DNA of 64,000 bases. It comes from Chryseobacterium sp. ISL-6 (GTDB taxonomy: Bacteria; Bacteroidota; Bacteroidia; Flavobacteriales; Weeksellaceae). Position 1 is the first letter of the stretch; each line of letters starts with the position of its first letter. Below, piece after piece: positions 35,651-48,958 of the stretch. The position numbers and the translations under genes were made by a program. Where the stretch lies: the NCBI RefSeq assembly GCF_018613715.1, contig NZ_JAGGPT010000001.1:1-64000 (forward strand), written 5' to 3'. The notes under the pieces are model-generated. The model was given only the letters and a program-made list of their open reading frames with translations, made no database searches and was not told the origin of the DNA.

Positions 35651-38600
35651 ATGAAGTTAGCAGAAATATCGATTAAAAGACCATCGTTAGTTATTGTATT
35701 ATTTACAATTCTGACATTGGGAGGTATCCTGAGTTATACACTCATGGGATACGAATTGATTCCGAAGTTCGAAACCAATATGGTAACGATTTCTACGACC
35801 TATCCTGGAGCTTCTCCTGCAGAGGTGGAAACTTCCGTTACCCGGAAGATTGAGGACGCCGTTGGATCTTTGGAAAACGTAAAAAAAGTAGAATCTTCTT
35901 CATACGAAAGTTTATCTGTAATCATGGTTCAGCTGAACGATGGAGCGGATGTAGATTATGCTTTGAATGATGCTCAGCGTAAGGTAAATGCAGTTCTTAA
36001 AGATCTTCCGGATGATGTAGATCCACCTTCACTGAACAAATTCTCTTTGGATGATTTACCAATTATCACGATGAGTATTTCATCTGATAAATTGAACAAT
36101 AAAGAGCTTTATGATCTTTTAGATAAAAAAATAGAACCTATTTTCTCTCGGGTAAATGGTGTGGCACAAGTTGATCTTGTGGGTGGACAGGAAAGAGAAA
36201 TTCAGGTAAACCTTGATGAGAAGAAATTGCAGGGTTATGGACTTTCCATTGCTGATGTACAACAGGCTATTCTTTCATCAAACTTAGATTTCCCTACAGG
36301 TAGTTTGAAAACGAGAACTTCAAAATCTACGATCAGATTATCAGGAAAATATAAGTCAACTCAGGAAATGAACAACCTTGTGGTTTCTAATAAAGATGGA
36401 GCTCAGGTTCGTTTATCTGATATTGCAACGGTTTTTGACTCTCAGAAAGATGTTGAAAAAGTAGCAAGGTTCAATCAGTTTCCTACGATCTTAATGCAGG
36501 TTAAAAAACAATCGGATGCCAATGCGGTTGCCGTATCTGAAAGTGTTCAGAAAACGATTGCAACAGTAGAAGCAGCCTATAAAGTTCAGGGAATAAAAGT
36601 AAAAGTAGTAAATGATACTACAGACTTTACCCTTGAATCTGCCAACCACGTAATTTTCGACTTATTCTTAGCGATTATTCTTGTGGCAGTGGTGATGTTA
36701 TTATTCCTTCACAGTATTAGAAATGCCTTCATTGTAATGGTTTCCATTCCGGCTTCATTAATTGCTGCTTTCATTGGAATGAACCTGATGGGGTATACTT
36801 TGAACTTGATGAGTTTACTTGGACTTTCCCTTGTGGTGGGTATCCTTGTGGATGATGCGATCGTGGTACTGGAAAACATTTACCGTCACATGGAGATGGG
36901 TAAAAGTAAGATCAGGGCTGCATATGACGGAGCTTCGGAAATTGGATTTACCGTTGCGGCGATTACATTGGTAATTGTGGTGGTATTCCTTCCGATTGCG
37001 ATGAGTTCAGGTCTGGTAGCAAATATCCTGGGGCAGTTTTGCGTCACGGTAGTTATTGCCACCTTATTATCATTGTTGGCTTCATTTACAATCATTCCTT
37101 GGTTATCATCAAGATTTGGTAAACTGGAACATTTAACAGGTAAAAACTGGTTCGAGAAATTCATTCTTTGGTTTGAAGGGTTGATTGACAAATTCACACA
37201 CTGGATCACTGGAATTCTTGAATGGTGTCTGAAATCAACATTAAGAAGAATATCAACAGTGGTGATCACTTTTATTATTCTGATCTCTTCATTCATGTTG
37301 GTAGCATTTGGTTTTATCGGTGGTGAATTCTTCCCTCCAATTGACCGTGGTCAGTTCTTGGTTCAAATGGAATTGTCAAAAGATGCAACGGTTGAAAAGA
37401 CCAACCAGTTAACATTAGATGTTGAGAAATATTTAAGAAACGATAAAGATGTTGTTGATTTGATTACAACAGTAGGTCAGCAGTCAACAGGTTTTGGTGG
37501 AGCGCAGGCTACAACCTACCAATCTGAAGTTCAGGTAAACCTTACCGATAAATCTGAGCGTGCTGAAAGTACCAACATCAAAGCGGCTAAAGTAAAAAGA
37601 GCTTTAGAAGAGAAATTTACAGGAGTTGAGTTTAAAACTGCGCCAATTGGTATCCTGGGAGCTGAAAATGCACCGATCGAAATGGTAGTAACAGCTCCGG
37701 ATAATGCTACAGCAGTAAAAGAGGCTACAAGAATTCTAGAACTCTTGAAAAAAGTTCCTGGAGCGGTGGATGCTGAATTATCAACAGATACCGGTAACCC
37801 TGAAGTTCAGGTGAACATCGACAGAGATAAAATGGCTTCTTTAGGCTTGAATCTTCAAAGTGTAGGACAAACAATGCAGACTGCATTTAACGGAAATACA
37901 GATGGGAAATTCAGAGCCGGAGAATATGAATATGATATTAATATCCGTTTCGGAGATGCCAACAGACAGTCTATCGATGACGTTAAAAACCTAATGTTTA
38001 CAAATCCTAAAGGAGAACAGGTTCGTTTGAGCCAGTTTGCAGAAGTAAAAATGGGTTCTGGACCAAGCTTACTTGAACGTAGAGATAAATCTCCTTCCGT
38101 AAAAGTAAGAGCAAAAGCAGTAGGTAGACCAGTGGGTGACGTTGCCAATGAATGGGCAGACCAATTCATGAAGAGCGATAAAAAACCTATTGGGGTAGAT
38201 TACATCTGGAGTGGTGATATGGAAAACCAGCAGGAAGGTTTCGGTACGTTAGGTATTGCTTTATTAGCGGCTATCGTATTGGTTTACCTGGTAATGGTTT
38301 CATTGTATGACAGTTTCGTTTATCCGTTTGTGGTATTGTTCTCAATTCCATTGGCGATGATCGGGGTAATGGTAATCCTTGCCTTAACTGCGAATTCACT
38401 GAACATCTTTACGATGCTAGGGATGATCATGTTGATTGGTCTGGTAGCAAAGAATGCGATCTTGATTGTCGACTTTACGAATGCCAGAAAAGCAGCAGGA
38501 TCAAATACACACGATGCATTGGTTCAGGCTAACCATGCCCGTCTTCGTCCGATCCTTATGACAACAATCGCGATGATCTTCGGGATGTTGCCAATTGCAT

Positions 38601-38836
38601 TGGCTAGTGGAGCAGGAGCTGAATTTAATAAAGGTCTGGCGTGGGTAGTTATCGGTGGTTTGACATCGTCTCTATTCCTTACCTTGATTATCGTACCGGT
38701 AGTATACTCTTTATTTGATTCAATTCTTCGTAGAATGGGTCAACATAAGAAAACTGACTACGATGCTGAAATGAAAGCTGATTATGTACATAAAGAACTA
38801 AGTGAAGACGGATACACTCCGAAACATTTAGATTAA
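35651..38836 (+). CDS. RND-family efflux pump permease (AcrB/HAE1-like)
   Basis: The gene encodes 1061 residues with two related halves. Each half has one N-terminal membrane helix, a large periplasmic porter domain and five further helices. The start LAEISIKRPSLVIVLFTILT is typical. Helix 4 contains the proton-relay acidic pair in VVGILVDDAIVVLENIYRH, and the second half has AKNAILIVDFTNA. It pumps substrates out using the proton gradient, with the two preceding gene products. The substrate range is unknown. A terminator follows the stop. Confidence 0.95.
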   Translation: MKLAEISIKRPSLVIVLFTILTLGGILSYTLMGYELIPKFETNMVTISTTYPGASPAEVETSVTRKIEDAVGSLENVKKVESSSYESLSVIMVQLNDGADVDYALNDAQRKVNAVLKDLPDDVDPPSLNKFSLDDLPIITMSISSDKLNNKELYDLLDKKIEPIFSRVNGVAQVDLVGGQEREIQVNLDEKKLQGYGLSIADVQQAILSSNLDFPTGSLKTRTSKSTIRLSGKYKSTQEMNNLVVSNKDGAQVRLSDIATVFDSQKDVEKVARFNQFPTILMQVKKQSDANAVAVSESVQKTIATVEAAYKVQGIKVKVVNDTTDFTLESANHVIFDLFLAIILVAVVMLLFLHSIRNAFIVMVSIPASLIAAFIGMNLMGYTLNLMSLLGLSLVVGILVDDAIVVLENIYRHMEMGKSKIRAAYDGASEIGFTVAAITLVIVVVFLPIAMSSGLVANILGQFCVTVVIATLLSLLASFTIIPWLSSRFGKLEHLTGKNWFEKFILWFEGLIDKFTHWITGILEWCLKSTLRRISTVVITFIILISSFMLVAFGFIGGEFFPPIDRGQFLVQMELSKDATVEKTNQLTLDVEKYLRNDKDVVDLITTVGQQSTGFGGAQATTYQSEVQVNLTDKSERAESTNIKAAKVKRALEEKFTGVEFKTAPIGILGAENAPIEMVVTAPDNATAVKEATRILELLKKVPGAVDAELSTDTGNPEVQVNIDRDKMASLGLNLQSVGQTMQTAFNGNTDGKFRAGEYEYDINIRFGDANRQSIDDVKNLMFTNPKGEQVRLSQFAEVKMGSGPSLLERRDKSPSVKVRAKAVGRPVGDVANEWADQFMKSDKKPIGVDYIWSGDMENQQEGFGTLGIALLAAIVLVYLVMVSLYDSFVYPFVVLFSIPLAMIGVMVILALTANSLNIFTMLGMIMLIGLVAKNAILIVDFTNARKAAGSNTHDALVQANHARLRPILMTTIAMIFGMLPIALASGAGAEFNKGLAWVVIGGLTSSLFLTLIIVPVVYSLFDSILRRMGQHKKTDYDAEMKADYVHKELSEDGYTPKHLD

Positions 38837-38859
38837 TATAACAACCTTAATTAACCTAG

Positions 38860-38889
38860 AAACCGTATCAATTTTTGATACGGTTTTTT
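38860..38889 (+). terminator. terminator of the RND efflux operon
   Basis: AACCGTATCA / TGATACGGTT with loop ATTTT is followed by TTTTTG. Confidence 0.9.
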
Positions 38890-39097
38890 GTTTGGATTCT
38901 TTATTGAATAGTTTTATGACTTGAGGTATAAGTTTAGATTCCTACGGAATGACAAAGTGGGTCGAAATCTAGATGAAAATCTGCGTCATCTGCTCAATCT
39001 GCTAAAGAAAAAGTCAATCAATAGGAGCAGGTTTTAACCCGCTTATCAATAAGCATAAACAATTTAGCCAAAACTTAAAGATCTCATTTTTTCCATA
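38890..39097. other. intergenic stretch with dispersed-repeat-like sequence
   Basis: Between two terminators there is no gene. The segment ATTCCTACGGAATGACAAAG contains the small palindrome TTCC-TAC-GGAA, and it is followed by AATCTGCGTCATCTGCTCAA. Both look like short intergenic repeats that recur in flavobacterial genomes. This is from memory of the group and was not verified. No second copy was found in this window. Confidence 0.35.
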
Positions 39098-39098
39098 A

Positions 39099-39131
39099 CA
39101 AAAAAGGCTTCCAGAACAAACTGAAAGCCTT
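39099..39131 (-). terminator. terminator of the J-domain/KTSC gene
   Basis: AAGGCTTCCAG / CTGAAAGCCTT pairs with one mismatch and on the minus strand is followed by a T run. It is 22 nt behind the stop. Confidence 0.8.
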
Positions 39132-39152
39132 CATTATCTTTTACAGAAAAGA

Positions 39153-39599
39153 TTAATCTGCCATTACTTCACCAGACTTTCTATAGATAAAACTTCCATA
39201 GATGTGTCTTCTTGCAAAGCGGCTTGGTGAATCAGCATTAACCATTTTAATATAGGTATTTCTTGGAACCCCAATATATTCATACATTTTGCCATTCAAA
39301 TGTTGAACTTTTAAAATCTGCTTTTCAAAATAGAAATCCTGAATAATAGATTTTGTAATCGTTTCCGTATATTCTTCTTTGTATTTTTCCTGTGTTTCCG
39401 GGTTGATACTCACCAAAAAATGGTAAGCTTCGATCACAGATTTGCTTTTTTCTTCTGCTTCCAGTTTCCCGGCTTCGTCATTGATGAATTTATCAGGATG
39501 TGAATCTTTCATCGTATTTCTATAAATCGTCTTTAACTCTTTTAAAGTAACTGTTTTATCAACCCCAAGAAGCTTTCTGTGTTCACCAACTCTTTTCAT
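39153..39599 (-). CDS. J-domain protein fused to a KTSC domain
   Basis: This 148-residue protein carries an N-terminal J-domain-like helical region with the HPD motif at 34-36 (MKDSHPDKF). Proteins with this motif stimulate DnaK ATPase. The C-terminal 50 residues (VQHLNGKMYEYIGVPRNTYI to RRHIYGSFIYRK) match the KTSC domain, a small domain found with nucleic-acid enzymes and in phage or accessory proteins. The combination is seen in Bacteroidota, and its client is unknown. A strong-looking promoter lies 110 nt upstream, leaving a long leader. It marks the left border of the accessory segment. Confidence 0.8.
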   Translation of the reverse strand: MKRVGEHRKLLGVDKTVTLKELKTIYRNTMKDSHPDKFINDEAGKLEAEEKSKSVIEAYHFLVSINPETQEKYKEEYTETITKSIIQDFYFEKQILKVQHLNGKMYEYIGVPRNTYIKMVNADSPSRFARRHIYGSFIYRKSGEVMAD

Positions 39600-39711
39600 A
39601 ACTAAATATTTACTGATTTTTAAGGTTCTATCTAATTGCTATCTTCGTCAGCATTTATTTGTGTAATACTGTTAGTGAAGAAGTCATCATATGAATCCTT
39701 ATTTCGGGGTG

Positions 39712-39719
39712 CAAAATTA
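39712..39719 (-). promoter_or_regulatory. promoter element of the J-domain/KTSC gene
   Basis: On the minus strand TAATTTTG is followed by CACCCCG, the extended form often seen at strong Bacteroidota promoters. It gives a leader of about 105 nt. Confidence 0.45.
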
Positions 39720-39865
39720 GGCAATTAAAATTTAAAAAGCATAACTTGTTCAATATTAATTTATTTGATCTCCTTTTGTACTATAAAATGATAAAATACA
39801 ATTGGGAATAAATTGTTTTTAAATATGACTTAGAGGCATTTAAGGAAACAAAGTCTTATTTTTTT

Positions 39866-39873
39866 TATATTTG
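39866..39873 (+). promoter_or_regulatory. -7 promoter element of the XRE regulator gene
   Basis: TATATTTG matches TAnnTTTG and ends 14 nt before the ATG at 39888. There is no clear -33 element. Confidence 0.4.
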
Positions 39874-39887
39874 TAAAAAAGCAGATT

Positions 39888-40262
39888 ATGCAAAAAGAAA
39901 AATTACGTGTTCTAAGGAAGAAAAAAGGATATACTCAACAGCAAATTGCTGATGTAATTGCTACCGATGTATCCAATTACTGTAGAAAGGAAGGCGGAGA
40001 TGTGAAAATAATACATGAGGAATGGGATAAGATTGCTAATTTTCTTGAAGTGCCGGTTGAGGAGATCTATGAAGAGGATGAAGGTAAAGTCATTATCGAA
40101 AATCCGGTATTTAATGATAGCCCGGGTTCTTCAGTTAATGGAAATGTTTTTGGTAATCATACAGTAAATATTACTAATGATTTAGCTATAGAAATTATTA
40201 AAAATTTGCAGGAATATATTGGCTTGTTAAAAGAAGAAGTTAAAAGATTAAAAGGCGAATAG
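39888..40262 (+). CDS. XRE-family helix-turn-helix regulator
   Basis: The 124-residue protein has an N-terminal Cro/C1-type HTH at about 5-62 (LRVLRKKKGYTQQQIADVIA, then VSNYCRKEGG and WDKIANFLEVPVEEIYEEDE). A Gly/Asn/Val-rich linker (NSPGSSVNGNVFGNHTVNIT) follows, and a C-terminal coiled-coil helix completes it. The gene converges on the DUF3800 gene, whose end is 92 bp away. It could regulate the neighbouring NTPase/DUF3800 unit, but that is inference from position. Similar stand-alone XRE proteins are common in the group. Confidence 0.85.
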   Translation: MQKEKLRVLRKKKGYTQQQIADVIATDVSNYCRKEGGDVKIIHEEWDKIANFLEVPVEEIYEEDEGKVIIENPVFNDSPGSSVNGNVFGNHTVNITNDLAIEIIKNLQEYIGLLKEEVKRLKGE

Positions 40263-40329
40263 TTTTAGCGGTAGTTTATTTAAACATACAAACAAAAAAA
40301 CATCTATCTGAATGCTTTTTTATTATGTA

Positions 40330-40354
40330 ATAGATATATTATTAACATATCTAT
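40330..40354. repeat. hairpin at the 3' end of the DUF3800 gene
   Basis: ATAGATAT and ATATCTAT form 8-bp arms around a 9-nt loop between the convergent XRE and DUF3800 genes. It lacks a strong T run, so it is at best a weak terminator. Confidence 0.4.
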
Positions 40355-41457
40355 TAAAATGGGATGATTGAGTCTTCTAAGAATTTAATTTTTATAAGTT
40401 CATCATTACTCACGGTTTGATATATAAAAGCTTTGTTTTTATTTTCTGAAAAGGAAAGTAGATCATAGAAAGATTGCAATGTAGAAATTTGAATTTCACT
40501 AAATTCCTTTATGTCTAATTTTATTTTGTTGATAGAAGTGTCATTGATATAGTTATATAACTTTCCAATAAAACCTATTAATATATCTGATAGTTGAATT
40601 AATTGATTGTTTGTTGAGTCAATAAATTTATAATTTTCAATTTTTTTGTTATCGTAAGTCAGATTTAATTGATTTAATAATTCTTCAATAGTCACTTCAT
40701 TATCAAAAAGATGTTCAGAGTTAATAAACAGATAAATTGTTCGTAGATAAAATGTTTGAAAATCAGTGATTAATTCATGATTTTTTTCATCCATTATAAA
40801 ATATAAATTCTTTGTTTCTTTACTATTCTTTAATAGCATTAAAATAATTCCATTTTCTAAACTTGGTGGTTCTAGTTCATAAATTTTAATTAACTCATCA
40901 AGAAAAAATATAACTTTATTTTCTTTTAAATTAGGATAGTCGTAATTAAAAAAAACAGATATAAATTTAGTTATGTTTTTTTTAACACATATATAGAGAT
41001 TATTTTTTAATAGCCTATTGTAGGGTATTAAATCATCTGCCTTTGATGCTATCAATAGTGAGTCAATGATATCAACTATTGAAAAATACAAAAAATTCAA
41101 AGATGAATAATGAATAGCTATATTGTTTTGTTTTAAAAATTCAAAAACCGAAGAAAGATGATTTGATTTTAGACAATTTAAAAAATCTCCTTTGGCAATA
41201 TGTTTTAATTTGACTTCCTTGACATTGTGTTGAAGTTTAAAATTGGAAAATAAAGACTGTGTGTCTATATTTTCATCATTTTCTAAAACAATACCACCTA
41301 AAATGAAATTTGTTTTAATAGATTCATTAAATGAATCTTCTTTTAAATAATATCTTCTAATATTGTTGGTTTCATCGTAGTAAAATTTATACTTTTTATC
41401 TAATTTTTTTAAATTAAACATTTCGATATTGGAAGATCTTAATTCTTTGGTTTCCAT
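40354..41457 (-). CDS. DUF3800 domain protein, putative metal-dependent nuclease-like partner
   Basis: This 367-residue protein is AT-rich and Lys/Asn/Ile-rich. The DUF3800 signature is visible at both ends: Asp28-Glu29 in KFYYDETNN near the start, then FILGGIVL. Near the end are Asp280 in KFIDSTNN and the IQLSDILIGFIGK segment with Asp291. In DUF3800 these acidic residues are thought to form an RNase H-like metal site. That is a family-level expectation not shown here. It lies 42 bp behind the NTPase gene on the same strand, so both are probably one operon. There is no signal peptide or membrane segment. Confidence 0.78.
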   Translation of the reverse strand: METKELRSSNIEMFNLKKLDKKYKFYYDETNNIRRYYLKEDSFNESIKTNFILGGIVLENDENIDTQSLFSNFKLQHNVKEVKLKHIAKGDFLNCLKSNHLSSVFEFLKQNNIAIHYSSLNFLYFSIVDIIDSLLIASKADDLIPYNRLLKNNLYICVKKNITKFISVFFNYDYPNLKENKVIFFLDELIKIYELEPPSLENGIILMLLKNSKETKNLYFIMDEKNHELITDFQTFYLRTIYLFINSEHLFDNEVTIEELLNQLNLTYDNKKIENYKFIDSTNNQLIQLSDILIGFIGKLYNYINDTSINKIKLDIKEFSEIQISTLQSFYDLLSFSENKNKAFIYQTVSNDELIKIKFLEDSIIPF

Positions 41458-41499
41458 AGTTTATCGTTTTTAAGTTTTTTACTAATATTTGTTCTTTTT

Positions 41500-43374
41500 T
41501 TATTCTAGTTTTAAGATTATCTTGTTAATTTCAGTGATTAAATTCTCAATCATCTGTAATTTCAATTTTTTATCTAAAAAATTTTTCTTTTTTATAATTA
41601 AATTGTCTTTAAGTCCTTTTAAAAAATTGATTTCTTCTTTTTGAAAATCTTCAACTATTCTTGTAGAATAGTTTTCAGGATAATATCTATAAACAAAATA
41701 TTCTTTTAACTCAAAAATATCTTTATTTTTTAAGTTTATTATTATTTCTGAAAATTTTTCAGAATCTATATTTTTGAATATTGGTGTATTTTCATAAATT
41801 TTTCTGCTGAAATTATCATACTGTTTAAAAACAGTGTATAAGTCATCAATCGTTTTTTCATTAATATTATAAATAATATCACTTACGTAGTTTTCAGATA
41901 TCTGTTTTTGTTGGCTTAATATACAATTTTTAAAATGTAAAATGAGTTCTTTAAATTCTTCGGTATTTTCAGATGCATAAGATTTTTTTAATGTTCCATG
42001 AAGAATTGAATTGAGATGGATGATTTCATGAAGGTTTTTTATATTAGAGATTAAATTTTTTGCTCGAGTGAGCACTTCTGCTTTACTTTTATTATAAAGA
42101 TTATTGTCGACTAGACTAAATAATATTCCAGAGATATGAAGGATTTCTGGAAAATTTAAATCTTCACTTTCAAAAAAATCTTTTTCAACTTTAGGTAAGA
42201 TTTCTATAAATTCTTCATCCTCTAGATATTTCCAATACCATAATTTTTCCCAGTTTTTTTCTTCAGATGGATTATATATAATAGAATGATTAATTTCATT
42301 AACAATTTTTTCATAAACTCCATTCGCTATATAATTAACTAATTCAGAAGACGAAAATAATTTAGTTGAATGAAGTAAATTATCAGACTTAATTGCTTCT
42401 TCATAGTTTTGGAGATTTCCTTTTCCTTCAGAAATAAATATTTGTTGAAAATTATTAATATCTAAATTTCCAGTGTTATATTCTAGATAAAAAATTAAAA
42501 AATAAGCTAAAAAATTCTTAAATAAATATTCGAAATTTTCTAGATGCTTTTTTAAAGTTGGATCAGTCAAGTTTATTAGTCTTTCGAAGTCAAATATGGC
42601 TCTCTGAAGAACTCTTAAATTTTGTTTCTCGGAGGTAACAAATATTTTTAAGATTAAGTCTTTATACTTAATTAATAGATTTTTTATATCAGGAGATCCA
42701 ATTTGATCAATAAAATATTGTATTGCTGCATCTGTATTTGGAGAAACTTCAAAAGTCTTTCCTATTACTTTTTCTTTAAAGGTTAAATAGGAATATTTTG
42801 GTTTTTCCAATTTATCTTTTTCTATGATTTTTTCTTCATCTGATATTAAAATTATCTTACATTTTGAATGTTCCACAAAATCGTTGATAAAACCATAAAT
42901 CTCATCTACTGGGATTTTGCATCTTTCAATATCATCAAATATTATTACTCTATTACCTTTGATATTATCGTTATCTTGCTTAAAAATTGAAATAACATCA
43001 AAATTTAGAGTTAAAGCGCTATCAACTTTTTCATCTTTATTATAGTCAAAATCTATTTTTAATGTTGACTTTATAAATCCTTTAAGGATTGCAGTTGCAA
43101 CTTTAACCCCCTTAGAATGTAGAAATGGGGAAATCTTTTCTTTTAATTTATCGATAATTTCTTTTCTTGAATTCAATCCGTTTAAAGAAATATATATGGG
43201 ACTTAATACGATGAAATCATCATCAGCAATATTGGGAGTTGACCATTTCTCAATTAACTTCTTTATAAAGAAAGTTTTTCCGGATCCCCAACTTCCTTTT
43301 ATTAAAATTGCAAAGTTTATATTCTCTGCTTTCACATAATAATCTAAATAATCAATAATATGTTTGTTATCCAT
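41500..43374 (-). CDS. KAP-like P-loop NTPase
   Basis: This 624-residue protein has a Walker A motif GSWGSGKT at 27-34, almost at the N-terminus and preceded by FAILIK. The Walker B strand is VIIFDDIERC at 143-152, followed by the sensor-like KCKIILISDEEKI. This layout and the DIERC signature match KAP/STAND-related ATPases found in phage-defence and plasmid systems. The remaining 440 residues are helical and unassigned and may sense or bind a partner. No membrane insert is obvious. Codon use is extremely AT-rich compared with flanking core genes, consistent with transfer. It is the first gene of a two-gene unit with the DUF3800 protein. Confidence 0.78.
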   Translation of the reverse strand: MDNKHIIDYLDYYVKAENINFAILIKGSWGSGKTFFIKKLIEKWSTPNIADDDFIVLSPIYISLNGLNSRKEIIDKLKEKISPFLHSKGVKVATAILKGFIKSTLKIDFDYNKDEKVDSALTLNFDVISIFKQDNDNIKGNRVIIFDDIERCKIPVDEIYGFINDFVEHSKCKIILISDEEKIIEKDKLEKPKYSYLTFKEKVIGKTFEVSPNTDAAIQYFIDQIGSPDIKNLLIKYKDLILKIFVTSEKQNLRVLQRAIFDFERLINLTDPTLKKHLENFEYLFKNFLAYFLIFYLEYNTGNLDINNFQQIFISEGKGNLQNYEEAIKSDNLLHSTKLFSSSELVNYIANGVYEKIVNEINHSIIYNPSEEKNWEKLWYWKYLEDEEFIEILPKVEKDFFESEDLNFPEILHISGILFSLVDNNLYNKSKAEVLTRAKNLISNIKNLHEIIHLNSILHGTLKKSYASENTEEFKELILHFKNCILSQQKQISENYVSDIIYNINEKTIDDLYTVFKQYDNFSRKIYENTPIFKNIDSEKFSEIIINLKNKDIFELKEYFVYRYYPENYSTRIVEDFQKEEINFLKGLKDNLIIKKKNFLDKKLKLQMIENLITEINKIILKLE

Positions 43375-43388
43375 AGTTTTAGTTTGAT

Positions 43389-43396
43389 CAAATTTA
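43389..43396 (-). promoter_or_regulatory. -7 promoter element of the NTPase-DUF3800 unit
   Basis: TAAATTTG on the minus strand ends about 15 nt before the NTPase start codon. There is no TTG at the usual -33 distance. Confidence 0.4.
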
Positions 43397-43430
43397 ATAT
43401 TATAAATGTAAAAAACCTTTCTTTAAGTAA

Positions 43431-43456
43431 AAAAAAGACAGGAGCTTTCACTCCTG
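43431..43456 (-). terminator. terminator copy 1 (duplicate of the metE terminator)
   Basis: CAGGAG-CTTTCA-CTCCTG is followed on the minus strand by a T run. It belongs to the 57-bp repeat that also ends metE. Confidence 0.75.
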
Positions 43457-43495
43457 CCTCAATAAAAAATAATAATCAGCTCTATTAAACTTTCT
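43439..43495. repeat. 57-bp direct repeat, copy 1
   Basis: It is identical over all 57 bases to 44446-44502. It contains the metE terminator and the last bases of the metE coding sequence. The two copies are 1007 bp apart and flank the metE remnant plus the SnoaL-like gene. Confidence 0.95.
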
Positions 43496-43550
43496 TTAGC
43501 ATAAGCTGCTGTCACTTCTTTGAAGTTTCATTCTATAGCGATAACATTAA
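43484..43550 (-). pseudogene. remnant of a metE 3' end
   Basis: Translated on the minus strand the sequence gives VIAI...KEVTAAYA, matching LIAM...KEVAAAYA at the end of the intact metE, with an in-frame stop and a 2-nt loss before the terminal codons. Its downstream terminator is identical to that of metE. It is therefore a decayed leftover of a second metE copy, about 20 codons long. Confidence 0.8.
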
Positions 43551-43584
43551 TAATGTAATTAATAAGTGTATTAGTTTTTAATAC

Positions 43585-43612
43585 CAAAGCCATTCTCAAG
43601 AGAATGGCTTTG
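43585..43612 (-). terminator. hairpin behind the SnoaL-like gene
   Basis: The perfect 13-bp stem CAAAGCCATTCTC / GAGAATGGCTTTG with loop AA lies 22 nt downstream of the stop. The T run is poor, so it may act as a stabilising or weak terminator hairpin. Confidence 0.6.
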
Positions 43613-43633
43613 AACTACAAAAAAAGGAATCAT

Positions 43634-44386
43634 TTAAAACTTTCCATTGTTATTTTTCCAATTTTCTTTTGATGGAATTTCTTCTATAGTATCCCAATGT
43701 TCGATAATTTTTCCGTTTTCGATACGGAATAAATCGTAGAAAGAAGTGTGTTTTCCGGCAAAATGACCTTCGCTTGTTGTGAGCACAAAATTACCTTCAC
43801 CCAATACTAAGTGAATGGTGTCGTATTGCATGGTGATGCCTTGAGAAGCCATATGATCCATGGCCTTTCCCAATCCCGATAGGCCATCGCCTATTTGCGG
43901 GTTGTGCTGGGTATAGTTTTCACCATCAATGTAACTGTTTAATCTTTCCATTTTCCCCTGTACTAAAATATCTTCTACAAAGTCTCTTGCTAATGTTTTG
44001 TTAGCTTCTGTTTTCTCTAAATCCTTAATCGTCGTTGTACCATCTGTCATAGTGTGTCCACTTGGGTTTGGAGCAGATGTTTCCTGAAGATTATCCCAGT
44101 GTTCTACAGCCTTTCCATCTTCGAAACGGAAGATATCGAAGCCTGTTTTTGGACCAAAAAAGTTGTAATCTACATGGCAGAAAGCATAATCACCGTCTTG
44201 AAAAGCTCTTATGATATTTACCTTTGTTGTATCTATCGGAAGCTGAGAAAATAAGGTGGCTAAGCCTGCGGGCCCTTCAGCAATATTCAGATTGTGTTGC
44301 ACATACTTCGCCTCATTGATGTGATCAAGATGTACCCGAGTTTCAATAGCATTTAAAAGTGCTATTGCTTTTTGTTTGTTTTCCAT
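43634..44386 (-). CDS. tandem SnoaL-like (NTF2-fold) protein
   Basis: This 250-residue protein is made of two homologous halves. Each ends with the same pattern: FDIFRFEDGKAVEHWD in the first, YDLFRIENGKIIEHWD in the second. Each half also has a KYVQHN / NYTQHNP segment. This is a duplicated SnoaL-like/NTF2 domain as in nuclear transport factor 2 family proteins, which include hydrolases and isomerases acting on small molecules. It has no signal peptide. The gene is enclosed by the metE-derived 57-bp repeats, suggesting that it arrived by recombination at metE. Confidence 0.85.
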   Translation of the reverse strand: MENKQKAIALLNAIETRVHLDHINEAKYVQHNLNIAEGPAGLATLFSQLPIDTTKVNIIRAFQDGDYAFCHVDYNFFGPKTGFDIFRFEDGKAVEHWDNLQETSAPNPSGHTMTDGTTTIKDLEKTEANKTLARDFVEDILVQGKMERLNSYIDGENYTQHNPQIGDGLSGLGKAMDHMASQGITMQYDTIHLVLGEGNFVLTTSEGHFAGKHTSFYDLFRIENGKIIEHWDTIEEIPSKENWKNNNGKF

Positions 44387-44440
44387 TTTTTTTGTGTTTT
44401 TTAATTAAGGAGCTTAAGATATGAAAGATGGAGCTAATAA

Positions 44441-44464
44441 AAAAGCAGGAGCTTTCACTCCTGC
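44441..44464 (-). terminator. terminator of metE
   Basis: GCAGGAG-CTTTCA-CTCCTGC is followed on the minus strand by TTTT, 27 nt downstream of the metE stop. Confidence 0.8.
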
Positions 44465-44502
44465 CTCAATAAAAAATAATAATCAGCTCTATTAAACTTT
44501 CT
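44446..44502. repeat. 57-bp direct repeat, copy 2 (native metE end)
   Basis: This is a perfect duplicate of 43439-43495. It is the native context, because it runs into the last codons of the intact metE gene. Confidence 0.95.
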
Positions 44503-46801
44503 CAGTCGCATAAGCTGCAGCGACCTCTTTCGAAGCTGCTACCATAGCGATCAATGCTTTTTCAGTTTCATCCCAATGACGGGTTTTTAATCCACAGTCT
44601 GGATTTACCCAAAGTTGTTCTGCCGGGATTACGGCTTGTGCTTTTTTTAGTAATGCTACCATTTCCTCTTTCGATGGAACTCTTGGAGAGTGAATGTCAT
44701 AAACTCCCGGACCGATCTCGTTAGGGTATTTAAAGTCTGCAAAAGCATTCAGTAATTCCATTTGGCTTCTTGAGCATTCTATTGTGATTACATCAGCATC
44801 CATATCAGCGATATTGTGGATGATGTCATTAAATTCAGAATAACACATGTGTGTATGGATTTGCGTAGCATCTTCAACACCGCTTGCAGAAATTCTGAAA
44901 GCTTCAACGGCCCATTGCAAATAATTCTGCCATTCGGCTTTTCGTAAAGGAAGACCTTCTCTGATGGCAGGTTCATCGATCTGGATAATTCTGATTCCTG
45001 CTTTTTCAAGATCGTTTACTTCGTCACGGATTGCCAAAGCAATCTGCTTACAGGTTGTAGAACGAGGCTGATCATCGCGTACAAAAGACCACTGAAGGAT
45101 CGTTACAGGACCTGTCAACATTCCTTTAACCCATTTTTGCGTTAAAGATTGAGCGTATTGTGACCAATAAACGGTCATCGGTTGTGGTCTGTGAACATCT
45201 CCATAAATGACGGGTGGTTTTACACAACGGCTTCCATAACTCTGAACCCATCCATTTTGAGTAAAGGCAAATCCTGCCAGTTGTTCACCAAAATATTCCA
45301 CCATATCGTTACGCTCAAATTCTCCATGAACCAACACATCAATTCCTATTTCTTCCTGCCAGTTGATGGTTCTTTGGGTTTCTTCTTTAAGCAATTGATC
45401 ATACTTCTGAGCCGTCAGATCTCCTTTTTTGAATTGGGCTCTCCAGCTTCTTACTTCTTTTGTTTGTGGGAAAGATCCGATCGTTGTCGTTGGGAATAAA
45501 GGAAGCTCCAATGCATTCTGCTGTGCTTCTTTTCTTACATTAAAAGGACTATTTCTCTTTGCATCACTTTCTGTAGTTATCGCAACGCGGTTTTTCACAT
45601 CCTGATTATGAATTAAGGTTGAAACTTTACGGTTTTCAATGGCTTGTTTATTTTCAGCCAATTGTTGCAGTGTGCTGTAATCTGGATTTTCTGAGGCTAG
45701 TTTTTTCAAAGTAACAATTTCAGAAACCTTCTGTTTGGCAAAAGCCATCCATTGCTTGATTTCAGGAGATAATATCTTTTCATTTTTCTCCAGATCAAGA
45801 TCGAAAGGAGAATGGAGTAGTGAGCATGAAGGAGCAATGAAAACTCTTTCAGAACCTAATGCGGTTATGGCTTTCTTGATAAAAGCCAGTGAATGGTTGA
45901 AATCATTTTTCCAGATGTTTCTTCCATCAACAACTCCCAATGATAGAATCAACGTTTCAGGAATGGCAGTAAGAACTTCATCCAACTGTTCCGGAGCGCG
46001 TACCAGGTCGATGTGTAAAGCATCAATAGGTAGCGTAGTTGCTAGTGAAAGATTATCTTTTAGTCCATCAAAATAGGTGGTAATGATGAATTTAAGATTC
46101 GGGAATTGTTCTGTGATCTGGACATAAACAGATTGGTAAACTTCTTTTGCTTTTTGATCAAGATCTAAAGCTAAAAAGGGCTCGTCAAACTGGATCCATT
46201 CAGCACCATTATTTTCTAACTCTTTTAAAATTTCAGTATAAACAGGAAGCAAGTTCTGAGCTAAATCCAATTTGTCAAAGCCATCTTCTTTTTCCTTTCC
46301 TAATAGTAAATACGTAACCAATCCAATGATAACAGGTTTTGCACTGATCCCTGCTTCTTTAGCTTCAATAAACTCATTGACGATCTTATTGGAGAATAAT
46401 CTGAATTGCTGATCTTTCTGAAATTCGGGAACGATATAATGGTAATTGGTGTCAAACCATTTTGTCATTTCCATCGCCGTAATATCTAAACCTTCTTTCT
46501 GATGGCCTCTTGCCATAGCAAAATACAGATCAATCTCATTTGAAGTAATGTCCTGATAACGCGCAGGAATAGCACCAACTGACAGGGTCATATCCAATAC
46601 TTGGTCGTAAAATGAAAAATCATTTGATGGAATAAGATCGATTCCGGCATCCTGTTGTAATTTCCAGTTTTGTTTTCTGATGGTTTTTCCAACCTCTAAA
46701 AGTTCCTGTAATGTTGTTTTGCCCGACCAATATTGCTCGCAGGCTTTTTTGAGTTCTCTGTTGCTACCAATTCGCGGGTAACCTAGGATGTGTGTTTGCA
46801 T
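44492..46801 (-). CDS. metE: cobalamin-independent methionine synthase
   Basis: The 769-residue protein has the normal length and two-barrel layout of MetE. It starts MQTHILGYPRIGSNRELKKA. The catalytic C-terminal half begins near LFPTTTIGSFPQTKEVRSWR and holds the zinc ligands in IHTHMCYSE and NPDCG (Cys736). It transfers the methyl group from 5-methyltetrahydrofolate polyglutamate to homocysteine. A cobalamin riboswitch lies about 425 nt upstream on the same strand, the expected way to switch MetE off when vitamin B12 allows MetH to work. Its 3' end is duplicated downstream as a relic. Confidence 0.97.
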   Translation of the reverse strand: MQTHILGYPRIGSNRELKKACEQYWSGKTTLQELLEVGKTIRKQNWKLQQDAGIDLIPSNDFSFYDQVLDMTLSVGAIPARYQDITSNEIDLYFAMARGHQKEGLDITAMEMTKWFDTNYHYIVPEFQKDQQFRLFSNKIVNEFIEAKEAGISAKPVIIGLVTYLLLGKEKEDGFDKLDLAQNLLPVYTEILKELENNGAEWIQFDEPFLALDLDQKAKEVYQSVYVQITEQFPNLKFIITTYFDGLKDNLSLATTLPIDALHIDLVRAPEQLDEVLTAIPETLILSLGVVDGRNIWKNDFNHSLAFIKKAITALGSERVFIAPSCSLLHSPFDLDLEKNEKILSPEIKQWMAFAKQKVSEIVTLKKLASENPDYSTLQQLAENKQAIENRKVSTLIHNQDVKNRVAITTESDAKRNSPFNVRKEAQQNALELPLFPTTTIGSFPQTKEVRSWRAQFKKGDLTAQKYDQLLKEETQRTINWQEEIGIDVLVHGEFERNDMVEYFGEQLAGFAFTQNGWVQSYGSRCVKPPVIYGDVHRPQPMTVYWSQYAQSLTQKWVKGMLTGPVTILQWSFVRDDQPRSTTCKQIALAIRDEVNDLEKAGIRIIQIDEPAIREGLPLRKAEWQNYLQWAVEAFRISASGVEDATQIHTHMCYSEFNDIIHNIADMDADVITIECSRSQMELLNAFADFKYPNEIGPGVYDIHSPRVPSKEEMVALLKKAQAVIPAEQLWVNPDCGLKTRHWDETEKALIAMVAASKEVAAAYATEKV

Positions 46802-47225
46802 TTTCTTTTAAACTTTTAATTAAATTTTAGTTTTTAAAAGTTCTTTTAGAATGCTTCGTAATACGATCGGGAAAGAGTTTTCAGCAATAGAGAAGATACA
46901 ATATGGACGTAATTTTCCTGTTTAAGGAAGAGATTAGAGAGTAACTTTGAAATAATTTTTTTTAACGCAAAGTTTATTTCTAATTCTTCTTATTTAAGAA
47001 GGCAAAGGAGAAATCAATTTCATTGATTTTGAAGAAGCATGCGTTTTATCCATAAGCTTCATCAGCGACAGCGTCGCATCTCTTTGCTCCTTAAAACTAA
47101 GGAATCTTTAGAATAAATCTTTGCGTTTAAACTCATATCCATTCCAAGTCTAAACAACCCAATACGTTCAAAAAGTATCATCTGTATGACCAAAAGCTTC
47201 AAACCGCGAAAGCATTGTCAATTCG
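46802..47225 (-). other. long leader between the riboswitch and metE
   Basis: About 424 nt without a gene separate the aptamer from the metE start. It contains the short palindrome GCGAC-AGC-GTCGC at about 47071-47083 and CTTCTT-AAAT-AAGAAG near 46988-47003. Neither has a clear T run on the minus strand, so I cannot point to the expression platform. The stretch around 46985-47100 has the look of an intergenic repeat, unproven. Confidence 0.4.
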
Positions 47226-47362
47226 GAAAAGGCAGGTCTCCTGACTTGTAACAGTTTTGTCATCCTTCCCGCTTCTGGCAGTGGATCTGCAAGGACAAAA
47301 ACCTTTGGTGTGTTACTTACAGTTGCGCGACAGTTCGTGATTTTCACACGATTCCCTATTAA
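47226..47362 (-). ncRNA. cobalamin riboswitch upstream of metE
   Basis: On the minus strand the conserved pieces occur in order: an AACTGTCGCGCAACTG-type helix region, CCACTG (around 47279-47284), GCGGGAAGG (around 47264-47272), and the B12 box GTCAGGAGACCTGCC (47231-47245). These are the hallmarks of the adenosylcobalamin-family aptamer. It faces metE, whose product is dispensable when B12 is present, so repression on B12 binding is expected. Exact ends are approximate. Confidence 0.92.
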
Positions 47363-47552
47363 TTTACTTTAAGTAAAACCTTTTCCGTTTGATGAAGTAT
47401 GTTAAAGAACAAAATAGGGTGTAAAGGTATTGAATAAAGTAATTTTATTGGTATTGTTTTAAATATTAGGAATAAAATTTTGTTTTAATTTAATTTTAAA
47501 GTTATTTATTCTGTAAATTTGAAAAAATCAATCGAAAAAAGAATATTATCCT

Positions 47553-48014
47553 GTGGAAAGACTCGACGATAAGGATCTTCAACTGTTAAGAATCCTGCAA
47601 AAGAATGCTAAACTGACGGTTAAAGAATTGGCCAAAGAAATAAACCTTTCTCCATCACCAGTTTTTGAACGGGTAAAAAGACTGGAGCAGGAAGGCTATA
47701 TCAAACATTACGCTGCGGTTTTGGAAGCTGAAAAACTAAATCGTGGTTTTACCGTTTTTTGTCAGGTGAAATTAAAGATTCACGATCGGTCGGTAGGAAA
47801 TGAATTTGTGAAAGAAATTGTACAAATTGAAGAAGTAGCAGAATGCTACAATATTTCAGGAGATTTCGATTTCCTGCTTAAAGTTCAGGTAAGGGATATG
47901 AAACATTACCAGGATTTTGTATTCAACAAATTAGGGTCTGTAGATTCCATAGGAAGTACCCACAGTACTTTTGTGATGGCTGAGGTGAAGAACAATCATG
48001 GAGTTACGATATAA
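47553..48014 (+). CDS. Lrp/AsnC-family transcriptional regulator
   Basis: This 153-residue protein, read from a GTG at 47553, begins with the family HTH (LDDKDLQLLRILQKNAKLTV, KELAKEINLSPSPVFERVKR). A C-terminal RAM domain (EVAECYNISGDFDFLLKVQV) binds amino acids and sets the oligomer state. It is divergent from the metE riboswitch transcript, with the starts about 190 bp from the aptamer. Control of metE or amino-acid genes is plausible but not shown. Confidence 0.92.
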   Translation: MERLDDKDLQLLRILQKNAKLTVKELAKEINLSPSPVFERVKRLEQEGYIKHYAAVLEAEKLNRGFTVFCQVKLKIHDRSVGNEFVKEIVQIEEVAECYNISGDFDFLLKVQVRDMKHYQDFVFNKLGSVDSIGSTHSTFVMAEVKNNHGVTI

Positions 48015-48032
48015 ACAATCAGAGCTTCAATA

Positions 48033-48563
48033 TTACTTTTTTGCTCTTATCCTACTCAACGAAACAGAGGTTATCCCCAGATAGGATGCAATATAATATT
48101 GCGGAACGCGGCGGAAAATTTCCGGTGATTGTTTAAGCAATTCGGCATATCTTTCTTCGGCACTGTCCTTTATCCGAGAAATAAAAAGTTTCTGATATTT
48201 AAGCAGACGCTCTTGCAAATAACTGTAATAGAATTCCTTAATATGCGGATTAAGCTCCATCTTTTGCCTGAACTCTTCAATAGAAGTACTGTAAACAACA
48301 GAAGGCTCTATCATTTCGATATTATAAATACTTGGTGAATTGTAAAATAAACTTTCCCATGATGAGATAAGGTTACCTTCAAATAAAAACTGGAAAGTAA
48401 TTTCCTTACCATCATTATTAAGCCAGCCTCTTGCTACTCCTTTTTCAAGATAGTAGAATTTACGGGCCATTTTACCTTCTTCCGTTAATAAGGTTTTAGG
48501 AGCAAGTTCCTCCTTATCAAAACCATTTAGTATTTCGTCTAAAACATTTTTATCCAGGGACAT
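48033..48563 (-). CDS. Crp/Fnr-family regulator
   Basis: This 176-residue protein has a cNMP-binding-like beta barrel at about 10-120 (REFYYLEKG-type turn ARKFYYLEKGVARGWLNNDG). A short C-terminal HTH ends YIASYLGITSVSLSRIRAKK. It belongs to the small flavobacterial Crp/Fnr group with a degenerate effector pocket. It precedes the VOC gene's 3' end on the same strand: the VOC gene stops 14 bp upstream of this start, so the two are likely co-transcribed. The effector is unknown. Confidence 0.88.
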   Translation of the reverse strand: MSLDKNVLDEILNGFDKEELAPKTLLTEEGKMARKFYYLEKGVARGWLNNDGKEITFQFLFEGNLISSWESLFYNSPSIYNIEMIEPSVVYSTSIEEFRQKMELNPHIKEFYYSYLQERLLKYQKLFISRIKDSAEERYAELLKQSPEIFRRVPQYYIASYLGITSVSLSRIRAKK

Positions 48564-48577
48564 ACTTATGACGGGAT

Positions 48578-48958
48578 TTAAATATAATTACTTACTTCAA
48601 TAAGGTTCATATCAGGATCTCTGAAATATATTGATCTTATTTTGCCCATCGCACCTGTTCTCTCGACGATACCTTCAATGATCTCAATGTTTTTATGTTG
48701 TAATTCCTTTAAAACCTCATTGATATCTGTTGCTGCAATAAAACATAGATCTGCAGAACCGGGAGTTGGATGTTCTGCTTTGGGCTCAAACTCTTTTCCT
48801 TTTTGGTGAAGATTGATCTTTTGGTTTCCAAAAGTCAACGCTTTTCTGTTATCTCCGAAGGTTACGACTTCGAAGCCGAGAATATGGGTATAGAACCCGA
48901 TTGTTTTATCGATATTGGCTACGGTTAAAACGATGTGATCGATGTTTTTGATTTCCAT
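48578..48958 (-). CDS. VOC superfamily (glyoxalase-like) protein
   Basis: The 126-residue protein has two beta-alpha-beta-beta-beta modules. The start [20 protein letters not shown] carries a metal-type His, and the end [17 protein letters not shown] carries the Glu ligand, as in glyoxalase/dioxygenase/fosfomycin-resistance folds. The substrate is unknown. It is the first gene of a pair with the Crp/Fnr regulator. Confidence 0.88.

Follow-up and report, generated by a model that had tools for sequence, protein, structure and literature searches.

The first 64,000 nucleotides of contig NZ_JAGGPT010000001.1 from Chryseobacterium sp. ISL-6 (this whole stretch is called the window here) carry a KAP-family P-loop NTPase gene followed by a DUF3800 gene, which an earlier note had read as a phage-defence system joining a sensing ATPase to a nuclease. 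The closest described counterparts of the two proteins are the PADLOC families PDC-S49 and PDC-S51, where PDC stands for 'phage defence candidate', an untested class according to the accessible part of the source (PMC11514479). The KAP protein matches PDC-S49 over almost its full length (residues 1-623, E 2.2e-236), as does the DUF3800 protein PDC-S51 (residues 2-360, E 9e-115), and this membership of candidate defence families supports the earlier note in part. The 'S' in these names presumably means single-gene; the two are separate candidates in PADLOC, whereas in the window they stand in tandem. Neither the tandem nor the names PDC-S49 and PDC-S51 were found in the searchable literature, outside which lie subscription papers and preprints.

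RADAR (RdrA-RdrB) resembles the locus in placing an ATPase gene beside an enzyme-like gene, and RdrA is the best Foldseek match of the KAP structure model (E 3.2e-4), with a low TM (0.29). The partner differs, being an adenosine deaminase in RADAR and DUF3800 in the window; the KAP protein has 624 aa against ~850 for RdrA chains, and no RdrB adenosine deaminase occurs among the eight neighbouring genes scanned. QatABCD likewise has a KAP NTPase with an extra C-terminal region and a predicted nuclease in the locus: as far as the accessible text goes, QatA is a predicted KAP NTPase with DNA-binding ability that seems to form heptamers or octamers, and its loss did not give full susceptibility (PMC13279940). 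The operon partners of QatA are QatB, QatC (QueC-like) and QatD (TatD), and no QueC or TatD family was found among the same eight neighbours. DUF3800 proteins are described as accessories at CRISPR V-A2 and VI-F loci in the available excerpts (PMC10910872, PMC12669027), one of which already puts an RNase H fold of DUF3800 in print (PMC10910872). The Cas12a2-linked relative in that excerpt is a TPR-DUF3800 protein, unlike the window DUF3800, and the eight neighbours include no Cas families. Gabija genes stand beside DUF3800 only in other genomes; in the window, neither protein of the pair nor the helix-turn-helix (HTH) neighbour matches GajA or GajB. Compared with RNase HII/H2, the window DUF3800 reads YYDETNN in place of the DE(A/V)GRG of the 24 RNase HII proteins compared, and it differs further by a large helical insertion, without detectable sequence similarity.

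Two candidate defence genes in one variable slot

The reading that we favour, with moderate confidence, is that two independent, mobile, likely anti-phage genes are stacked as an AT-rich cassette in one variable slot, probably co-transcribed, and do not make up one dedicated system. Both genes lie where the earlier note had placed them, with the same lengths and on the minus strand (Table 1), separated by 42 bp. Their AT content is indeed higher than that of their surroundings (GC 0.236 for KAP and 0.220 for DUF3800 vs 0.32-0.39 for the four neighbours measured), with GC3 at 0.17-0.18 and a whole-window GC of 0.334. The 42-bp spacing suggests that transcription probably runs from one promoter; a Bacteroidota promoter pattern had no match upstream of KAP, and its total in the window was at chance level.

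The pair is an accessory cassette in a variable slot. A genome of the same species (G259) aligns with window positions 38000-40326 at 96.0% and with 43418-48600 at 97.1%, and 1171 bp of different DNA replaces 40327-43417, so that KAP and DUF3800 are jointly absent there. The pair is not fixed in all relatives, which by the earlier note would have counted against a defence system. The same genome retains the HTH gene (79%) and SnoaL (98%), and between them (L142) the 1171-bp content holds two short open reading frames (106 and 151 aa). Other genes occupy the interval from DnaJ to metE in G191, G229 and G263, and in G213 the matched flanks are, by coordinates, just ~220 bp apart. With the own genome included in every count, PDC-S49 turned up at E ≤ 1e-30 in 8 of the 296 genomes from the family, and at E ≤ 1e-25 in 8 of 395 from the order and 6 of 395 from the class; PDC-S51 was present in 3 of the 296 family genomes.

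A recombination scar had also been claimed next to the pair. The sequence in question is a 68-nt direct repeat (43428-43495 and 44435-44502), which overlaps the metE 3' end and includes the hairpin beyond; its second copy lies on the far side of the SnoaL gene. Both copies are present in the pair-less G259, and the repeat was therefore rejected as the insertion scar of the pair.

The two families seldom meet. On the KAP side, the family, order and class collections gave 20 distinct PDC-S49 loci, and the 19 genomes that contain them were searched with the Pfam DUF3800 model. DUF3800 scored above the cut-off in 4 of these genomes (five genes; G231 has in addition a broken match that falls short of the cut-off) and was absent at E ≤ 0.01 from the other 15. 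It fell within 10 kb of KAP at 3 of the 20 loci and directly downstream at 2, own locus included; at 17 loci no DUF3800 was shown within 10 kb, and in G096 it sits on a contig other than that of KAP. On the DUF3800 side, genomes and viral contigs together supplied 85 loci, among them near-duplicates and some short ones; those from genomes were gathered by an alignment-based contig search, a single-protein query having returned no matches. A tblastn search of the fetched DNA with six PDC-S49 relatives found a PDC-S49 KAP in none of the 85. When KAP proteins of any kind were considered for 50 of 80 genome DUF3800 loci, 19 had one in the genome and none lay at a fitting place, placement being judged by coordinates without contig names; matches that by their coordinates might lie in a fetched locus do not read open there. 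Three plasmid KAP loci showed no annotated DUF3800 within 6 kb, in gene tables that are incomplete.

The counts from both sides mean that KAP-DUF3800 adjacency is rare and not bound to one DUF3800 subfamily, and the pair was rejected as a conserved operon. The specific ATPase plus DUF3800 system proposed by the earlier note is not supported in that form either, given direct succession at only 2 of 20 PDC-S49 loci, the second with a DUF3800 of another subfamily, and none of 85 from the other side. More generally, two defence candidates that lie side by side should be tested for co-occurrence before the name of a system is given to them.

Settings of the two families in other genomes

An anti-phage role for either gene is suggested by its family and its neighbourhood. 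Among 25 same-strand genes upstream of DUF3800 (within 100 bp, more than 100 aa), 11 match PADLOC at E ≤ 1e-4, namely type I and type IIG restriction enzymes, PD-T7-1 (two, one partial), Dsr1, GajB, PDC-M68B, PDC-M50A, a PD-DExK nuclease, and weakly capP and DpdF. A sample of 118 of the 181 proteins encoded no more than two genes away from DUF3800 (41,790 residues) matches 166 PADLOC families at E ≤ 1e-20, and a sample of 120 of 140 far proteins (30,842 residues) matches 47, a contrast that is a trend and not a test because near proteins are longer, families overlap and the families listed are the first 25 for each sample.

GajA and/or GajB, by PADLOC, lie within ~3.1 kb of DUF3800 in at least six loci (L062, L064, L065, L080, L089, L091), from records named as Bacteroidota, Bacillota and proteobacteria (three phyla). 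In L089 and L091 a PDC-S51 DUF3800 stands ~60 bp upstream of GajA. Six loci is a lower bound, because PADLOC covered only part of the neighbours. The PDC-S51 DUF3800 may be a Gabija accessory, and we put this neighbourhood forward as new, although it was not searched for in print. DUF3800 and PD-T7-1 are a possible recurrent pair, relatives of the latter being present in L034, L036, L080 and L098. The PD-T7-1 gene is directly downstream of DUF3800 in L034 (11122-12474, 1-bp overlap) and in L036 (1177-2514, 29-bp gap).

Elsewhere KAP and DUF3800 mostly occur apart, singly in conjugative elements. DUF3800 lies near TraG in L137 and L136, and in L137 immediately beside a DUF4134 gene, which we take to be traE; the L024 locus has BLAST matches to the same tra genes. 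Opposite-strand genes flank DUF3800 in 11 loci of one spacing pattern, among which L137 and L024 are tied to tra genes. The L137 spacing, in which the opposite-strand genes lie at 124-182 bp on the upstream side and at 81-102 bp on the downstream side, is common to nine further loci, which for that reason are probably in the same conjugative-element setting, while L025 has a same-strand gene downstream and L136 one upstream. In the Bacteroidota conjugative element of L137 (8491-12459), DUF3800, next to the traE-like DUF4134 gene, converges on a gene set of DUF6527 / DUF6791-ThiF / multi-ubiquitin type. A PDC-S49 KAP in L179, likewise flanked on either side by genes of the opposite strand, is two small open reading frames away from the DUF4134 gene of a related element, whose DUF4133 and TraG genes are close by. 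Since this setting, the one KAP case, matches that of the DUF3800 loci, the two families appear to use the same kind of cargo slot, which is also put forward as new and was not searched for in print.

Such settings, together with DUF3800 relatives on 147 plasmid records (65 predicted conjugative), would suit a service of both genes to the mobile elements that carry them, through competitor exclusion or element maintenance, with anti-phage activity secondary or absent. We consider this quite unlikely, as many DUF3800 neighbours match phage-defence families, and the window pair has chromosomal genes around it, none of the eight neighbours scanned being a tra gene.

Predicted proteins and possible cooperation

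The Walker A (GSWGSGKT) and Walker B (IIFDDIERC) motifs reported in the KAP protein are present, and G27, G32, K33, D147, D148, E150 and R151 are invariant across 46 aligned sequences. The protein scores 67.9 bits against PF07693 (KAP_NTPase), for which the Pfam gathering cut-off is 20. Its AlphaFold2 model (pLDDT 84.0, pTM 0.56) has low confidence at residues 85-125. In KAP NTPases, membrane helices inserted in the P-loop domain are common but not universal. The window protein is a predicted AAA+-like ATPase with a fold related to RdrA, and it would assemble on nucleic acid as an oligomer.

DUF3800 is widespread, and a tested function was not found in the literature searched. The window member scores 35.8 bits against PF12686 (gathering cut-off 21) and has the YYDET, FIDS and IQLSDILIG segments described earlier. 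Its structure model appears to resemble RNase HII/H2, in keeping with the nuclease-like effector that had been proposed. Six acids are nearly invariant in 112 aligned sequences (Asp28, Glu29, Asp129, Asp252, Glu254, Asp291); of the three active-site candidates named beforehand, Asp28 and Asp291 are well conserved, but Asp280 less so (89 of the 112 sequences have D there). For D28, E29, N31 and H116 the invariance is partly built in, because the DUF3800 loci behind these calls were fetched with patterns containing F[YF]YDETNN or HYSSLN; D129, D252, E254 and D291 fall outside those patterns. The protein would bind metal through D28, E29, D129, D252, E254 and D291 and cut nucleic acid, its substrate perhaps being RNA in RNA-DNA hybrids. 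As far as our literature searches reach, the predicted RNase HII/H2 resemblance with its conserved acids appears to be new. Specific residues and partners for study follow from the predicted fold and acids, the conjugative slot and the repeated proximity to defence genes, those of Gabija among them.

It has also to be asked whether DUF3800 acts with a structured RNA, as an RNA-controlled or RNA-guided nuclease. Rfam contains DUF3800-named motifs (PMC11701678, in the part available), and the excerpt of PMC10910872 links a DUF3800 relative to Cas12a2 loci and putative ncRNAs. Window 38800-47000 gave no DUF3800 motif at E ≤ 5, however, and none reached the gathering score in the window or in five related loci, and we hold this explanation to be very improbable.

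Cooperation between the two genes is a more serious alternative, if a doubtful one. The KAP ring would recognise or remodel phage nucleic acid and pass it to the RNase H2-like DUF3800 nuclease, on the model of RADAR, where an ATPase ring is coupled to a deaminase. The spacing, shared strand and composition, the joint absence from G259, the RdrA match of the KAP model and the second KAP-DUF3800 neighbourhood, in G231, with another DUF3800 subfamily, are consistent with it, as is the DNA-binding, oligomeric look of QatA, also a KAP protein, in the accessible text (PMC13279940). It is opposed by the 17 of 20 PDC-S49 loci and 15 of 19 genomes counted above, by the 0 of 85 DUF3800 loci, by the 330 bp between the genes in G231, and by the incomplete effect of QatA loss in that same text. 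A bolder version, which we think unlikely, would have a RADAR-like immune machine in which a KAP AAA+ ring and an RNase H2-like DUF3800 destroy the RNA-DNA hybrids of replicating phage, KAP partnering more than one DUF3800 subfamily and DUF3800 being a mobile nuclease module for many ATPase-based systems, Gabija included.

Several points weigh against two independent anti-phage genes. The 42-bp gap, single strand and same odd composition suit one unit. In G231 a DUF3800 follows KAP 330 bp downstream on the same strand, and in G523 a third neighbourhood has the two 7.3 kb apart on opposite strands. If the own genome is set aside, PDC-S49 genomes thus have 4 DUF3800 genes, of which 2 fall within 10 kb of KAP, where random placement expects ~0.6% (~0.44 Mb of 77 Mb in KAP reach, from genome sizes and uncorrected for defence-island clustering). 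Adjacency is therefore rare yet above random placement, for which defence islands in common could account. As regards the anti-phage role, 14 of the 25 close upstream genes of DUF3800 are without a PADLOC match (in one of them, from L088, Pfam detects an OLD-like TOPRIM domain), and the literature searched yielded no test of either protein against phage. The RNase HII resemblance is by fold alone, with a best Foldseek E of 0.5; hhalign of the 112 DUF3800 against the 24 RNase HII sequences gave a probability of ≤0.5%, outside the acidic residues, and no profile match.

The DUF3800 beside KAP in G231 is of a different subfamily (BLASTP E 0.18 to the window protein), and neither it nor its G523 counterpart matches PADLOC at E ≤ 1e-8; a further DUF3800 in G231, a PDC-S51 member, lies ~20 kb away. 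The G231 locus (L012:8879-16527) holds KAP, the divergent DUF3800 and a large AAA_11/AAA_12 helicase gene, all in one orientation. Under the favoured reading of two independent genes, each self-sufficient and elsewhere mostly travelling singly, the two would have come into tandem in the variable slot and be read from one promoter, and each would block phage growth alone or add to a neighbouring system.

Features of the locus and its neighbours

Table 1. Positions of the cassette, its genes and adjoining features in the window
Feature	Position	Strand	Basis or remark
Accessory cassette	40327..43417	.	swapped for 1171 bp of other DNA in same-species genome G259; GC 0.228
KAP-family P-loop NTPase, 624 aa, PADLOC PDC-S49	41500..43374	-	PF07693 and PDC-S49 matches
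DUF3800 protein, 367 aa, PADLOC PDC-S51, predicted RNase HII/H2-like fold	40354..41457	-	
42-bp spacer, KAP stop to DUF3800 start	41458..41499	-	sequence
Possible -7 box TAAATTTG upstream of KAP start	43389..43396	-	sequence; no exact match to the full promoter pattern
metE 3' end copy with hairpin and T-run (terminator-like)	43428..43495	-	96% to 44435-44502; right cassette border

The nearest of the eight neighbours scanned are an AcrB-type pump, a DnaJ/KTSC protein and the HTH protein on one side, and SnoaL and metE on the other. The HTH protein is small, with an RmrA-like N-terminus (39888-40262, plus strand), and related DNA is scattered across genomes of the genus. Upstream of metE, which encodes the cobalamin-independent methionine synthase, a cobalamin riboswitch (99.5 bits) lies at 47214-47398 on the minus strand.

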